Shown piece by piece: positions 50,712-57,227 of a stretch of DNA of 64,000 nucleotides. A program made the position numbers and the translations under genes. Source of the stretch: Halorientalis salina (GTDB lineage Archaea; Halobacteriota; Halobacteria; Halobacteriales; Haloarculaceae); NCBI RefSeq assembly GCF_005049285.1, contig NZ_SOSC01000001.1, positions 62,001 through 126,000 on the forward strand. Reading direction: 5' to 3'. Below the pieces are notes generated by a model. It was not told the origin of the DNA and did no database searches. It saw only the letters and a program-made list of their open reading frames with translations. Numbering within the stretch: position 1 is the first letter of the stretch; the number at the start of each line of letters is the position of its first letter.

Positions 50712-50731
50712 ATTACGTATCGATGCGTAAT
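50712..50731. promoter_or_regulatory. 20-bp near-perfect palindrome over the metE-like start
   Basis: A 10+10 bp inverted repeat with one mismatch pair, outer arms ATTACG and CGTAAT. It covers the bases immediately before and including most of the start codon of the first MetE-like gene (ATG 50730). An AT-rich AAATATTAAAG box at 50695-50704 is 26-35 nt before the ATG, so the palindrome would lie at the transcription start. It is a candidate operator for methionine-related control. Confidence 0.6.
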
Positions 50732-51725
50732 GCCAGAGGTAGTCACGACGACGCCGGGTTTGTTCCCGTTGCCCGACTGGGCGAAAGACGAGTTATCGGA
50801 GTTGAAGGGCCATCAGAAGGCCGATCTGATTAGCGGCGACGAGACTGGGGAGATCCAGGAGGCCTACGAGCACGGCCGGAGCGAGATCATCGACCGCCAG
50901 CGCGAGGCCGGTCTCGACCGCATCGTCGAGGGCCAGTTCCGCTGGGACGACATGATCGCGCATCCGCTCGCCGTCCACGACAACGTCGACACGCGCGGCA
51001 TCGTCCGCTACTACGACAACAACAACTTCTATCGGGAGCCGGTCGTCACCGGTGACCTCACTGCCGACGGCGACGTTGCCGCAGAGCTGAACGCCGCCGG
51101 CGAACAGGTCGACGAGGGCCTCCAGGCCGTGCTGCCGGGGCCGTACTCGCTGGCCGATCTGGCGACCGACGAACACTACGGCGACGACGGGGAGTTCCTC
51201 GACGCGGTCGCGGAGTTCCTCGCCGGCGAGATCGCCGAGTTCCCCGAGGTCGAGACGCTGTTCCTGCTCGAACCGTCGCTGGTCGAGAACGCGCCCGGCG
51301 AGGGTGCCGACGAACGCGCCAGCGAGGCCATCGACGCCGTCGCGAGCGAGGCCGACGCCGAGGTCGTCGCCCACACCTACTGGGGCGCGCTGGACGAGAA
51401 GGTGTACGCCCACCTGATGGACGCCGACGTCGACGCCATCGGCTTCGACTTCGTGGCCGACCACGAGGCGAACCTCTACAACATCAACGAGTACGGCACG
51501 AAATCCGACGTGGCGCTCGGTCTGGTCGACGGCCAGAACACACTGGTCGAGGACCCCGAGACCATCGCGGAGCGTATCGAGTGGGTCGCCGACCAGACGC
51601 CCTCGGCGGACTTCGAGACGGTCTACGCCACGATCAACACGGAGACGTTCTATCTGCCGTACAACAAGTTCGAGGCCAAACTGGAAGCGCTCGCTGCAGT
51701 CAACAAGACGGAGGTGGAAGCATGA
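50730..51725 (+). CDS. MetE-like protein lacking zinc ligands
   Basis: 331 aa of the cobalamin-independent methionine synthase (UROD/MetE) barrel fold. It begins MPEVVTTTPGLFPLPDWAKDEL and contains VLPGPYSLADLA and FDFVADHEANLYNI. The HxC zinc-binding pair of active MetE reads AHTYWG here, and the late Cys region has FYLPYNKF, so the zinc site is missing. Probably it acts with the following gene as an archaeal split or core-type methionine synthase. Its stop overlaps the next start (ATGA). Confidence 0.82.
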   Translation: MPEVVTTTPGLFPLPDWAKDELSELKGHQKADLISGDETGEIQEAYEHGRSEIIDRQREAGLDRIVEGQFRWDDMIAHPLAVHDNVDTRGIVRYYDNNNFYREPVVTGDLTADGDVAAELNAAGEQVDEGLQAVLPGPYSLADLATDEHYGDDGEFLDAVAEFLAGEIAEFPEVETLFLLEPSLVENAPGEGADERASEAIDAVASEADAEVVAHTYWGALDEKVYAHLMDADVDAIGFDFVADHEANLYNINEYGTKSDVALGLVDGQNTLVEDPETIAERIEWVADQTPSADFETVYATINTETFYLPYNKFEAKLEALAAVNKTEVEA

Positions 51726-52780
51726 CCCGAGAGCAGTTCCGACCCGAGAACCACGACAACGACAACTTCCTGCTGACGACCGTCGTCGGCTCGTATCCCA
51801 AGCCGAAGTGGCTCAACCGCGCCCAGGATCTCATTGAGGACGACGAATCGAGCTTCGACGACGACGACTTAGAAGAGGCGCTCGACGACGCGGCGCGACT
51901 CATCACGGACGAACACGAGCGGACCGGGATGGACGTCGTGGTCGACGGCGAGATGCGCCGCAACGAGATGGTCGAGTACTTCGCCCACCTCATCGAGGGC
52001 TACGAGTTCAACGGCCGCGTCAAGGTCTGGGGGCACAACTACTTCGATAAGCCCTCGGTCGTCGACGAGGTCGAGTACGACCAGGAGTGGCTCGTCGACG
52101 AGTTCGAGTTCACCGACTCGGCGTCGGCCCGCCCCGTCAAGGTCCCGATCACCGGCCCTTACACGCTCGCGAACTGGTCGTTCAACGAGGTCTACGACGA
52201 CACGGAGGAACTCGCCTACGACCTCGCCGATCTGGTCAACGAGGAGATCGTCCGGCTGGTCGAGGCCGGCGCGAAGTACATCCAGATCGACGAGCCGGCG
52301 CTGGCGACGACGCCGGACGACCACGCCATCGTCGGCGAGTGCCTCGACCGGATCGTCGACGACATCCCGGAGGACGTTCGCGTCGGGCTCCACGTCTGTT
52401 ACGGCGATTACTCGCGCATCTATCCCGAGATGCTCGACTACCCCGTCGACGAGTTCGACCTCGAACTCTGCAACGGCAACTACGAGCAACTCGACGTGTT
52501 CAAAGAGACGGAGTTCACCGCGGACCTCGCGCTCGGCGTCGTCGACGCCCACGTCGCCGAGGTCGAGTCCGTCGAACAGATCAAGGAGAACATCAAGAAG
52601 GGCTTCGAGATCGTCCCGCCGGAACAGCTCACGGTCTCGCCCGACTGCGGTCTGAAACTCCTGCCGCGTGACGTGGCCTACGGCAAGATGGAGAACATGG
52701 TGAAAGCCGCCCGCGAAGTCGAGGAAGAACTCGACGCCGGCGAGATCGACGTCGGTCGAGCGGCCCCGGCCGACGACTGA
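51722..52780 (+). CDS. metE: methionine synthase, MetE C-terminal (core) type
   Basis: 352 aa, corresponding to the catalytic half of MetE. It has VVGSYPKPKWL (N-terminal), EMRRNEMVEYFA, ITGPYTLANWS, IQIDEPALA, the zinc site GLHVCYGDY (His224, Cys226) and SPDCGLKLLP (Cys309), so it should bind zinc and activate homocysteine. It lacks the N-terminal half of full-length MetE, as archaeal core methionine synthases do. ATG 51722 overlaps the stop of the zinc-less partner. Methyl donor in haloarchaea is not certain from sequence. Confidence 0.9.
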   Translation: MTREQFRPENHDNDNFLLTTVVGSYPKPKWLNRAQDLIEDDESSFDDDDLEEALDDAARLITDEHERTGMDVVVDGEMRRNEMVEYFAHLIEGYEFNGRVKVWGHNYFDKPSVVDEVEYDQEWLVDEFEFTDSASARPVKVPITGPYTLANWSFNEVYDDTEELAYDLADLVNEEIVRLVEAGAKYIQIDEPALATTPDDHAIVGECLDRIVDDIPEDVRVGLHVCYGDYSRIYPEMLDYPVDEFDLELCNGNYEQLDVFKETEFTADLALGVVDAHVAEVESVEQIKENIKKGFEIVPPEQLTVSPDCGLKLLPRDVAYGKMENMVKAAREVEEELDAGEIDVGRAAPADD

Positions 52781-53122: not shown

Positions 53123-53662
53123 TTACGAGGTTTCGGGACCGGTTTCTTCCGCAATAGTCGCGGAGTTGTCGCCTTCTGAGGACTCGTAGACGAGCTGAAT
53201 CTCGAAGTCGTTGTTGGCCGTGATTTTCGCGTAGTCACCGGACACCACAGCGCTGTCGCCGCCTTTGTCACCGTTCGCTGTTACGTTTGCACTGTCCAGA
53301 GCGGACCATTTCGTGTTGGAACTGTTAATGAACTTGTTATCTGGATTTGTATAGTCGACCGATGGACCTGGTGAGGCGTCAGTATTCATACTGTTGTTGT
53401 ACCCCTGTCCACGGAACACGAGTTCATTTGCCTTGATCGTCGCCCCGCCATCGTGAGTTACCGTAACGATGCCAGCCTCGTCGTTGAGTGAGTTGTAATC
53501 GAAGCTGAACGAGGCCTGCGGCGTCTGGTTCGTCTGCCCGCCGAGCCCGAGCACGAACGATGCGATGACTGCGGCCAGAATGACCGTGATCGCGACCATC
53601 AGGATGACCCCGATGACCGGACTGACTGCGTCGTCGTCGGAAAGCAGTTGTCGTACCTGCAT
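53123..53662 (-). CDS. archaeal type IV pilin-like protein
   Basis: 179 aa. The N-terminus MQVRQLLSDDDAVSPVIGVILMVAITVILAAVIASFVLGLGG contains the conserved haloarchaeal class III signal peptide/hydrophobic H-domain of PilA-type pilins, cut by PibD just before the AVSPVIG segment. The mature C-terminal part is rich in Asn, Thr and Ser, with N-x-S/T sequons (NNSM, NSSN, NVTA), so it is probably glycosylated. ATG 53662 was chosen over 53692 because a TTTATG box (53690-53695) lies about 30 nt before it. Confidence 0.82.
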   Translation of the reverse strand: MQVRQLLSDDDAVSPVIGVILMVAITVILAAVIASFVLGLGGQTNQTPQASFSFDYNSLNDEAGIVTVTHDGGATIKANELVFRGQGYNNSMNTDASPGPSVDYTNPDNKFINSSNTKWSALDSANVTANGDKGGDSAVVSGDYAKITANNDFEIQLVYESSEGDNSATIAEETGPETS

Positions 53663-53689
53663 GACAACTGCCTTTTGTGAGCTGGTGTA

Positions 53690-53695
53690 CATAAA
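53690..53695 (-). promoter_or_regulatory. TATA-like box of the pilin gene
   Basis: TTTATG on the minus strand, 28-33 nt before ATG 53662, which supports that start over an upstream ATG. Confidence 0.45.
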
Positions 53696-53820
53696 GGGGG
53701 CCGAGCGTTTATTTTTGTTCAGCCGGTATGTGGACCTCTTTCGATGGGCGTACAGTGTTTTCACGCTGTGTAAAAGCCTGTATTGAACCGGTCCCTTACT
53801 GCGATTATGGGTGATATTTC

Positions 53821-54065: not shown

Positions 54066-55025
54066 ATGGGCAGTCAGGAGGTACATCAGGAGGTCGAGGC
54101 CGTCGCGGAGGACATCGCGACGATGGAGACGCGCGGGGCCGCCACCATCGCCCGCGCCGTGGCCGATGCGTTGGCAACCCAGGCAGCGGCCAGCGAGGCG
54201 GAGACGCCGACGGACTTCCGCTCGGAGATGCGCGTCGCCGCTCGACTGCTCTCCGATACGCGACCGACGGCCGTGAGCCTCCCCAACGCGCTCCGGTTCG
54301 TCTTCGAACAGATGGACGGGGAAACCGTCGATGAACTCAAAGCGACGTCGATCGCGGCCGCCGACCGCTTTCGCGTGCAACTCGAACGCGCACAGGATGA
54401 TCTCGGTCGCGTCGGGGCGAACCGACTCCGCGACGGTGACACGGTCATGACCCACTGCCACTCGACGGACGCGCTGGCCTGCATCGAGGCCGCCGTCGAC
54501 CAGGGCAAGGACCTCTCGGCCGTCGTCAAGGAGACCCGTCCCCGCAACCAGGGACACATCACGGCTCAGGCGCTCCGCGAGATGGACGTTCCGGTGACGC
54601 TCGTCGTCGACAGCGCCGCCCGGCGCTACCTCGACGAGGTCGACCACGTCGTCGTCGGGGCCGACTCTATCGCCGCCGACGGCTCGGTCATCAACAAGAT
54701 CGGAACCAGCGGGCTGGCCGTCGTCGCCCGCGAGCGCGGCGTCCCGATCATGGTCGCCGCACAGACTATCAAACTCCATCCCGCGACGCTGACCGGCCAC
54801 ACTGTCGAGATCGAGATGCGCGACGAACGGGAAGTGATCGACGACGAGGCTCGAAGGGACATCGGCGAAATAACAGTCGAGAATCCCGCCTTCGACGTGA
54901 CACCGCCGCGGTACGTCGACGCCATCGTCACCGAACGCGGGCAGTTCCCACCCGAGAGCATCGTCACCCTGATGCGAGATATGTTCGGCGAGGGGACCGA
55001 CGACCCGTGGGAAGCGGAGACGTGA
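54066..55025 (+). CDS. ribose-1,5-bisphosphate isomerase
   Basis: 319 aa, eIF2B-alpha-like fold. It converts ribose-1,5-bisphosphate to ribulose-1,5-bisphosphate. Catalytic residues as established for the Thermococcus enzyme are kept: Cys131 in TVMTHCHSTDAL and Asp200 in VVVGADSIAADG. Other marks are RPTAVSLPNALRF and GTSGLAVVARERGVP. Length matches R15P isomerase (about 320) and not eIF2B subunits. Followed by a PfkB kinase gene and then, convergently, type III RuBisCO. ATG 54066 follows a weak AT-rich box; upstream frame is not conserved. Confidence 0.92.
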   Translation: MGSQEVHQEVEAVAEDIATMETRGAATIARAVADALATQAAASEAETPTDFRSEMRVAARLLSDTRPTAVSLPNALRFVFEQMDGETVDELKATSIAAADRFRVQLERAQDDLGRVGANRLRDGDTVMTHCHSTDALACIEAAVDQGKDLSAVVKETRPRNQGHITAQALREMDVPVTLVVDSAARRYLDEVDHVVVGADSIAADGSVINKIGTSGLAVVARERGVPIMVAAQTIKLHPATLTGHTVEIEMRDEREVIDDEARRDIGEITVENPAFDVTPPRYVDAIVTERGQFPPESIVTLMRDMFGEGTDDPWEAET

Positions 55026-55046
55026 CCTGCCCGCTCGCGGGGCGAA

Positions 55047-55055
55047 CTATTTACC
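55047..55055 (+). promoter_or_regulatory. TATA-like box of the PfkB kinase gene
   Basis: CTATTTACC, 25-33 nt before GTG 55080, supporting that GTG start and an independent leaderless transcript. Confidence 0.5.
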
Positions 55056-55079
55056 GCCGTCGCTCGAACCTACCTGTTC

Positions 55080-55967
55080 GTGGCTCGTGTCATCTGTGCC
55101 GGGCACGTCAACTGGGACGTGACCCTCCGCGTCGATCGCTTCCCGGCAGCCGACGGTGAGGCGACCATCACCGACCAGCACCAGTCCGGCGGCGGGAGCG
55201 CCTCGAACGTCGCCTGCGCCCTGACGGCCCTCGACGTCGAGACCGCGCTGCTCGGGAGCGTCGGCACCGACGAGAACGGGCACCTCGCCAGGCGTGAACT
55301 CTCCGCCGCCGGCGTCGACTGTTCGTCGCTGGTGACCGCCGAGGGCGAGACAGCAGTGAAGTACCTCGTCGTCGACGCCGACGGGGAGGTCGTCGTGCTG
55401 GGCAACGACGGCGCGAACGAGTCGTTCGACGCGGCCGACCTCTCGGAGGAAGCCCTCGAAGCGGCCAGCCACCTCCACCTGACGAGCCAGGAGCCGGACA
55501 CCGCGGCGCGGCTCGCCGAACGGGCGACAGAAGCCGGCCTGCGGGTCAGTTTCGACCCTGGCCGTCGCATCCACGCCCGGGACTACTCGGCGACTATCGC
55601 GCTCGCGGACGTCCTCTTTCTCAACGAGCGCGAGGCGGCCACCGCTATCGAGGAGCATCTCGGAGCCATCGAGGACCTCGCCCGCGTCGTCGCCATCAAA
55701 CACGGCGGCGACGGTGCCGAAGTGTTGACGCCCGAGGGCAACTACGTCAGCCACGACGGGTTCCCCGTCGATACCGTCGACACCACCGGTGCCGGCGACG
55801 CCTTCGCCGCCGGGTTCATCGCCGCTTTGCTCGACGACCGCTCGCCTCCGGACTACGAGCGAGCGCTCGCGGTGGCGAACGCTTGCGGCGCGCTCGCCGC
55901 CTGCGAACCCGGCGCTCGCGCCGACATCTCCTGGGACTGTATCGAAGCCGTCCTCGAAGAGCGATGA
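55080..55967 (+). CDS. PfkB family sugar kinase, candidate ribose-1-phosphate kinase
   Basis: 295 aa ribokinase-fold protein. It has the N-terminal GGGSASNVACALTAL substrate motif, and the C-terminal DTTGAGDAFAAGF with the anion-hole Asp as base. Start is GTG 55080, with a TATA-like box 25-33 nt upstream. Its position beside R15P isomerase and RuBisCO makes phosphorylation of ribose-1-phosphate to ribose-1,5-bisphosphate a sensible role, as described for a halophile PfkB kinase in the pentose bisphosphate pathway. A general ribokinase or nucleoside kinase role is the alternative. Confidence 0.85.
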   Translation: MARVICAGHVNWDVTLRVDRFPAADGEATITDQHQSGGGSASNVACALTALDVETALLGSVGTDENGHLARRELSAAGVDCSSLVTAEGETAVKYLVVDADGEVVVLGNDGANESFDAADLSEEALEAASHLHLTSQEPDTAARLAERATEAGLRVSFDPGRRIHARDYSATIALADVLFLNEREAATAIEEHLGAIEDLARVVAIKHGGDGAEVLTPEGNYVSHDGFPVDTVDTTGAGDAFAAGFIAALLDDRSPPDYERALAVANACGALAACEPGARADISWDCIEAVLEER

Positions 55968-55973
55968 GTCCGC

Positions 55974-57227
55974 CTAGCGGGGCGTCTCAGTTCCCCACTT
56001 CTCCAGGGCCGTCGCCAGTTCGGGGACCGCTTCGGCTTTCGACTCGATGTCCTCACCGGAAGCGGCGGCCTCGACGGCGGCTCTGAGTGCCTTCGCGCCG
56101 GCGTGGGTTCCGTCGGGGTGGCCGTGGACGCCGCCACCGGCCTGCACGCCGATGTTCGTCCCGAGACGGTCGACGAGCTCCGGGACGAGTCCGGGATGTA
56201 ATCCGCCGGACGCCATCGGAAGCACGTCGTTCAGGCCGTGGAGGTCCGAGTAGAGCCACTCGTTGATGCCGGCCGTGTCCTCGTTTTCGAGTTTGCCGAG
56301 GTCGGCGGTCCCCGTGTGGATGTGGTCGACGCCGCAGAGTCGGGCGATCTGTGCGACGACGCGCATCGAGACGCCGTGATTGGGTACCCGGTCGAACGCC
56401 GCGTGCATCGCACGGTGGGCGTGGATGGCGATGCCGTGTTTCTCACAGCGTTCGCGGACCCGCTGGACGGCCGCCCACCCGGTCGTCACCACGTCGACCA
56501 TCACGTACTCACAGCCCTGCTCGGCCGCCATGTCTACGCGTTCGAGCATCCGCCGGGTGTCCGCCGTGACGTTCACCAGGTACGATTTCGTCTCGCCGGT
56601 CTCCTCCTCGGCCCGGTCGCGTGCGGCCAGGCTCTCGGTCAACCGGTCGGCGAAGGGGTTGAAATCCTGGTCGGTCAGGTTCTCGTCGTCCTTGAGCAGG
56701 TCGAGGCCCCCCGTCCAGGCCTCCTCGCCGACCGTGACGTGTTGGTCCGTCGAGAGCCCCACCTTCGGCTTGGGGACCGTCGCGGTGATGGGGCGGTCGC
56801 CGGCGTCGAAGATCTCCTCGCGAACGCTGGTCCCGAACTGCGGCCCGGGGAAGGAGGTCGACAGTGGTTCGGGCCAGTCGCAATCGAGCAGGCGGATGCG
56901 CTCGACGGCTTTCATCCCCAGGATGTTCCCGGCGATACAGGAGAGCACCTGCGCCATGTTGCCGTCCTCGAACAGGGCGTCCGGATAGGCGACCCTGATC
57001 TCCCCGGACGACTCGTCGATGGCACACGCGGTCGCTGAGAGGTCCGTGACCGCCCCCTCGACCTGGAGTTCCGCCCAGGTGCCGTTGGAACTCTCGGAGG
57101 CGACGCGGCCGGCGGCCGCTTCCATGTCCATGTCCGCCGCCGGTTCGATGCGGAAGTCACAGACCAGTTCCGAATCCGCGGGGTCGTAGTCCAGATCCAG
57201 GAAGTCCTCGTATTTGATGCCGGGCAT
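55974..57227 (-). CDS. rbcL: type III ribulose-1,5-bisphosphate carboxylase/oxygenase, large subunit
   Basis: 417 aa, slightly short for RuBisCO (about 430-475), in keeping with archaeal form III. Catalytic residues are preserved: VPKPKVGLS (Lys153/155 region), the carbamylated Lys179 and metal ligands in GGLDLLKDDEN, HRAMHAAF, loop-6 Lys312 in GTADLGKLENED, and the phosphate sites SGGLHPG and QAGGGVHGHPDG. It should carboxylate RuBP to 3-phosphoglycerate. It is convergent with the PfkB gene (stops 7 nt apart) and has its own TATA box. No small subunit or carboxysome gene is near, as normal in archaea. Confidence 0.95.
   Translation of the reverse strand: MPGIKYEDFLDLDYDPADSELVCDFRIEPAADMDMEAAAGRVASESSNGTWAELQVEGAVTDLSATACAIDESSGEIRVAYPDALFEDGNMAQVLSCIAGNILGMKAVERIRLLDCDWPEPLSTSFPGPQFGTSVREEIFDAGDRPITATVPKPKVGLSTDQHVTVGEEAWTGGLDLLKDDENLTDQDFNPFADRLTESLAARDRAEEETGETKSYLVNVTADTRRMLERVDMAAEQGCEYVMVDVVTTGWAAVQRVRERCEKHGIAIHAHRAMHAAFDRVPNHGVSMRVVAQIARLCGVDHIHTGTADLGKLENEDTAGINEWLYSDLHGLNDVLPMASGGLHPGLVPELVDRLGTNIGVQAGGGVHGHPDGTHAGAKALRAAVEAAASGEDIESKAEAVPELATALEKWGTETPR

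Follow-up and report, generated by a model that had tools for sequence, protein, structure and literature searches.

A 3.2-kb gene trio that very probably encodes the lower half of the haloarchaeal pentose bisphosphate pathway

Three genes within 3.2 kb of haloarchaeal DNA very probably encode the lower steps of the pentose bisphosphate pathway of haloarchaea, in the form that uses RuBisCO. They lie in the window, the whole 64,000-nucleotide stretch that we analysed, which covers positions 62001-126000 of contig C11 in a 3.66-Mb haloarchaeal genome (G000) of 23 contigs. The original prediction had taken the trio for the core of a route from ribose-1-phosphate (R1P) to 3-phosphoglycerate, with a PfkB-family protein as the kinase. 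This reading is supported by equivalog models, by a tree and by sources of R1P in the genome. The prediction had also pointed to a described halophile route with a PfkB-family R1P kinase. That is so, and the combination of kinase, isomerase and RuBisCO has already been published (Sato et al. 2022, PMC9700705). The pathway is ordinary for haloarchaea and the window genome adds one more case.

In outline, R1P would come from a nucleoside phosphorylase whose gene lies in another part of the genome, and the PfkB kinase would convert this R1P with ATP to ribose-1,5-bisphosphate (R15P). The isomerase would turn R15P into ribulose-1,5-bisphosphate (RuBP), to which RuBisCO would add CO2, splitting the product into two molecules of 3-phosphoglycerate for central metabolism. 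An NMP phosphorylase may supply R15P directly from nucleotides. What the enzymes do in the organism, including the use of ATP by the kinase and the flux through the route, we infer.

The locus and its genes

All three genes are open and lie at the coordinates first given. The features of the locus are as follows.

54066-55025, + strand: ribose-1,5-bisphosphate isomerase (R15P to RuBP), 319 aa; TIGR00511, PF01008, PDB 5yfj
55048-55053, + strand: TATA-like TATTTA in the 54-nt gap, about 29 nt before the kinase GTG
55080-55967, + strand: PfkB-family kinase of the ATP-R1P-kinase type, 295 aa, GTG start; NF053626, PF00294, GAGDAFAAG motif, tree
55974-57227, - strand: form III RuBisCO (RuBP + CO2 to 2 x 3-phosphoglycerate), 417 aa; TIGR03326, PDB 2cwx, lysines

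A chance match is of no concern for these genes, since the E-values of the three family matches run from 1e-129 to 1e-183 and the trio recurs in 14 further genomes.

The isomerase matches the PF01008 domain and scores 467.9 bits against a cut-off of 314.1 in a profile search with TIGR00511. It also matches PDB 5yfj, a solved archaeal R15P isomerase, with an E-value of 9.7e-91. The predicted catalytic residues Cys131 and Asp200 are present, and the same residues stand at the aligned positions of 5yfj; we take these to be the Cys133 and Asp202 of the T. kodakarensis enzyme. The score and the alignment bear out the earlier call and confirm the gene as R15P isomerase, with the activity itself as a prediction. 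We also considered methylthioribose-1-phosphate isomerase and eIF2B as identities and rejected them, as their equivalog models fell below their cut-offs (197.8 against 279 for the MtnA equivalog, TIGR00512). TIGR00524, a broader subfamily model that bears MtnA's name, is passed (265.3 against 185.85).

The kinase follows on the same strand, directly after the isomerase as had been predicted, although the gap is 54 nt (55026-55079) and not the 55 nt first given. Kinase and isomerase nearly abut in three congeners, whereas the window has this 54-nt gap, and the TATA-like box within it suggests that the kinase may possibly have a leaderless promoter of its own.

RuBisCO and kinase converge, and their ends are 6 nt apart. 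Being on the opposite strand, RuBisCO is not co-transcribed with the isomerase and kinase. TTTTATA stands about 27 nt before its ATG, and similar boxes are found, by eye, upstream of RuBisCO in many relatives that have the trio. A form III enzyme with all of its catalytic lysines had been predicted here, and both parts hold: the protein scores 610.4 bits with TIGR03326 (cut-off 497.45), and K153, K179 and K312 lie in the conserved motifs KPKVGLS, GGLDLLKDDEN and LGKLE, the last of them in loop 6; lysines and carbamylation motif are matched in the alignment with PDB 2cwx. These lysines are presumably K175, K201 and K334 in form I numbering. The 2cwx structure, from P. horikoshii, is the best solved match (E 5.4e-123) and aligns over about 410 residues with small gaps only, so that the 417-aa protein is a normal short form III and not an odd truncation. 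A form IV (RuBisCO-like) identity was rejected, with both models below their cut-offs (mtnW 181.7 against 513.6, OiaX 169.5 against 700).

The neighbourhood holds a few other genes. An archaeal type IV pilin-like gene (window 53123-53764, - strand; PF07790, 88.8 bits) closely precedes the module on the opposite strand. Two adjacent methionine-synthase-type genes lie at window 50730-52780. The second passes PRK04326 (547.5 against 406); the first matches this family weakly (101.7) and may therefore be a separate N-terminal half.

The kinase

Assigning a substrate to a PfkB-family protein calls for some care. This one matches PF00294, carries a GAGDAFAAG motif that is invariant across eight aligned homologues, and reaches 430.9 bits with NF053626, the ATP-R1P-kinase equivalog, against a cut-off of 330. 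This is the sole kinase equivalog cut-off that it clears. Ribokinase (114.3 bits, cut-off 299.65), ADP-R1P kinase (111, cut-off 500), fructokinase (81.4, cut-off 450), a Thermoplasmatales nucleoside kinase model (63.4, cut-off 450) and a haloarchaeal 1-phosphofructokinase model (51, cut-off 400) were each rejected, as was adenosine kinase by model cut-offs.

The comparison with adenosine and fructose kinases proposed in the original prediction was run in part. In a tree of 54 rows the window kinase groups with those of three congeners (support 100/98) and sits within the 43 haloarchaeal kinase rows, which fall on one side of a single, moderately supported branch (88/90; found in 86% of 200 bootstrap trees). 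This tree has unassayed outgroup rows and several long branches; it leaves out the assayed kinase Halxa_1682 and named ribokinase, fructokinase and adenosine kinase references, and it omits L004 (no BLAST hit at the threshold) and L118 (partial gene). Neither this comparison nor the search for an R1P source, the second check proposed, speaks against the prediction.

In the rival reading, the PfkB protein acts on nucleosides, ribose or another sugar and is a mere neighbour of the isomerase, and R15P comes from NMP phosphorylase alone. It draws on the NMP phosphorylase that the genome does encode, on a ribokinase as the best solved-structure match of the kinase (92.5 bits), and on the assayed ATP-R1P kinase Halxa_1682, which also acted weakly on xylulose, 2'-deoxyguanosine and ribulose (PMC9700705). 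The window kinase shares 58-62% identity with seven aligned haloarchaeal homologues, so that some drift in substrate is possible. Against this stand the rival equivalog models, and also the gene order: in 14 of 14 relatives with the trio the two genes for kinase and isomerase share a strand and fit within 1.4 kb, and the same holds in named genomes that have no RuBisCO nearby. Furthermore, 44 of the 94 form III RuBisCO genomes in our survey lack an NMP phosphorylase over its cut-off and so need another source of R15P. We consider a different kinase function very unlikely, and an ATP-dependent R1P kinase remains our reading of the gene.

The genome has four PfkB matches, and this protein is the one R1P-kinase candidate among them. 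Of the remaining three, one is a KDG kinase (483.4 against 440), one a KDG-kinase-like protein (354.5, below 440) and one an HMP-P-kinase-like stretch.

Sources of ribose phosphates and the fate of RuBP

The proposed route depends on a source of R1P, and the genome search found two PNP_UDP_1 (PF01048) phosphorylases, at 169.4 and 142.2 bits against a cut-off of 25.1, plus an NMP (AMP) phosphorylase that would give R15P directly (G000:C11:440120-441580; TIGR03327, 596.1 bits against 535). Both PNP_UDP_1 proteins, taken as trimmed stretches, fall below the NCBIfam uridine phosphorylase cut-off, which leaves their nucleoside unfixed. One of the two, the phosphorylase of locus L008, is 76-86% identical to phosphorylases near the kinase in nine of 19 named haloarchaeal loci (L100-L118), namely L100, L103, L104, L105, L107, L109, L110, L112 and L113, with a distance of 5.8 kb in L110. 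In four of these (L105, L109, L112 and L113) isomerase, kinase and phosphorylase are consecutive on one strand. This order resembles the operons containing Urdpase1 that Sato et al. describe (PMC9700705), which suggests that the L008 phosphorylase is probably of the guanosine phosphorylase type.

Could the RuBisCO serve some other purpose? With its catalytic motifs present, it might work in a Calvin-type or reductive hexulose-phosphate cycle in place of nucleoside breakdown. However, the genome has no match to PF00485, the phosphoribulokinase family, at E <= 0.001, while the same search was positive in 11 of the 14 controls, Haloferax volcanii among them. We give such a cycle almost no chance.

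RuBP might also be consumed mainly through a non-carboxylating branch, in which RuBP phosphatase is followed by ribulose-1-phosphate aldolase. Many haloarchaea have this branch, 17 of 63 species in one count (PMC9700705), but the window genome has no match to Aldolase_II (PF00596), for which 12 of the 14 control genomes were positive. Such a branch is thus extremely improbable as the main sink, and carboxylation by the RuBisCO of the trio is the fate that we favour.

Distribution in the class

We surveyed 292 genomes of the class. The cut-offs are exceeded for NF053626 in 228, for TIGR00511 in 190, for TIGR03326 in 94 and for TIGR03327 in 54. Kinase and isomerase nearly always accompany RuBisCO: by eye from the tables, both are matched in 91 of the 94 RuBisCO genomes, the kinase at E <= 3e-83 (in a few cases under its cut-off) and the R15P isomerase at E <= 1e-110. 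NMP phosphorylase is over its cut-off in 50 of the 94. The compact convergent trio occurs in at least 15 of the 94, the window included, across seven genera and two families. Fifteen regions were compared; 14 have the trio in the same orientation, and G267 has RuBisCO only in the stretch taken. Within the window's genus, five genomes with its own, G110 is without the module. This absence, the small share of RuBisCO genomes in which the trio was seen clustered and the opposite strand of RuBisCO weigh against the pathway reading.

Where kinase and RuBisCO are spaced more widely, there is no conserved extra gene among the five open frames scanned between them. Three of these frames match a phosphotransferase family (L185, L192, L193), one matches a histidine kinase (L188) and one matches nothing over cut-off (L184).

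Three RuBisCO genomes, G021, G218 and G285, have no kinase match and no isomerase match over its cut-off. In all three, NMP phosphorylase sits immediately beside RuBisCO (G021:C14, G218:C10, G285:C17). A kinase or isomerase gene may simply be missing from the assemblies, as completeness is 89-92% for two of these genomes.

In four of the 54 genomes with NMP phosphorylase, no form III RuBisCO passes the cut-off: G160 (L195), G046 (L196), G253 (L197) and G020 (L198). They have R15P isomerase and ATP-R1P kinase, and a class II aldolase directly preceded by a hydrolase reading frame whose start motif is, by eye, HAD-like. This suggests an NMP phosphorylase feeding the non-carboxylating branch, unlike the species of PMC9700705, where NMP phosphorylase occurred only together with RuBisCO.

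The counts for NF053626 and TIGR00511 further imply at least 38 genomes with the kinase and no clear R15P isomerase. Ten species of this kind were reported by Sato et al., who left the pathway open (PMC9700705).

Loop 6 of the haloarchaeal RuBisCOs

The window RuBisCO and those of all 45 haloarchaeal loci examined (L040-L069, L180-L194) share the loop-6 signature GTA[DG]LGKL, as GTAGLGKL in 29 of the 45 and GTADLGKL in 16. It is one residue longer than the GTAVGKM of P. horikoshii at the same point. Form III RuBisCOs are often oxygen-sensitive. The hosts here are presumably aerobic, which counts against our main reading of the trio, but a longer loop 6 could be selected in an aerobic host to limit the oxygenase reaction. 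An unlikely idea is that the haloarchaeal enzymes make up a sub-form of their own within form III, one that tolerates oxygen, with the tolerance conjectural. If true, limiting the oxygenase reaction would make RuBisCO-based nucleoside salvage workable in air.

Ten further genomes have matches of 160-298 bits to TIGR03326, below its cut-off (G106, G232, G197, G280, G192, G277, G026, G263, G173 and G251). These are probably RuBisCO-like proteins in haloarchaea.

Discussion

The closest known system is that of Sato et al., who assayed R15P isomerase, ATP-R1P kinase and guanosine phosphorylase from other haloarchaea (Htur_0571, Halxa_1682 and Hlac_2318 are the assayed enzymes) and found RuBisCO by homology in 25 of 63 halophiles; NMP phosphorylase is also present in 14 of these (variant i) and absent from the other 11 (variant ii) (PMC9700705). 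Judged by its predicted genes, the window genome is of variant (i), with RuBisCO, NMP phosphorylase and nucleoside phosphorylase all present. It shares with that scheme (Fig. 5a of PMC9700705) the nucleoside phosphorylase, ATP-R1P kinase, R15P isomerase, RuBisCO and NMP phosphorylase. The layout differs: kinase, isomerase and RuBisCO stand together in the window, whereas the operons of PMC9700705 come, by the legend of its Fig. 3, from genomes without RuBisCO.

Two other archaeal pathways overlap with this one. That of Thermococcus kodakarensis (Aono 2015; Sato 2007, both via PMC9700705) likewise runs from R1P through R15P and RuBP to 3-phosphoglycerate, with NMP phosphorylase feeding R15P. 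Its R1P kinase is ADP-dependent (PMC9700705), in contrast to the window kinase, which fails that model. Halobacterium and its relatives share the route from guanosine to RuBP but end in RuBP phosphatase and ribulose-1-phosphate aldolase (PMC9700705), where the window genome has RuBisCO and no Aldolase_II. Excerpts of other papers report the NMP-RuBisCO route in Halorutilus (PMC10134839) and both branches in Natrarchaeobius strains (PMC12343721), while archaeal RuBisCO without PRK is set aside in PMC12999727, at least in the part cited. In the open-access literature, searched by titles and the openings of abstracts, with subscription papers outside our scope, we found no further report of this gene cluster in haloarchaea.

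In summary, judged by family models and genome context, every step of the published route from R1P kinase through R15P isomerase to RuBisCO is accounted for in one more genome. The compact layout offers a handy locus for genetics, where one can ask whether a form III RuBisCO carries nucleoside-derived flux in an aerobe.
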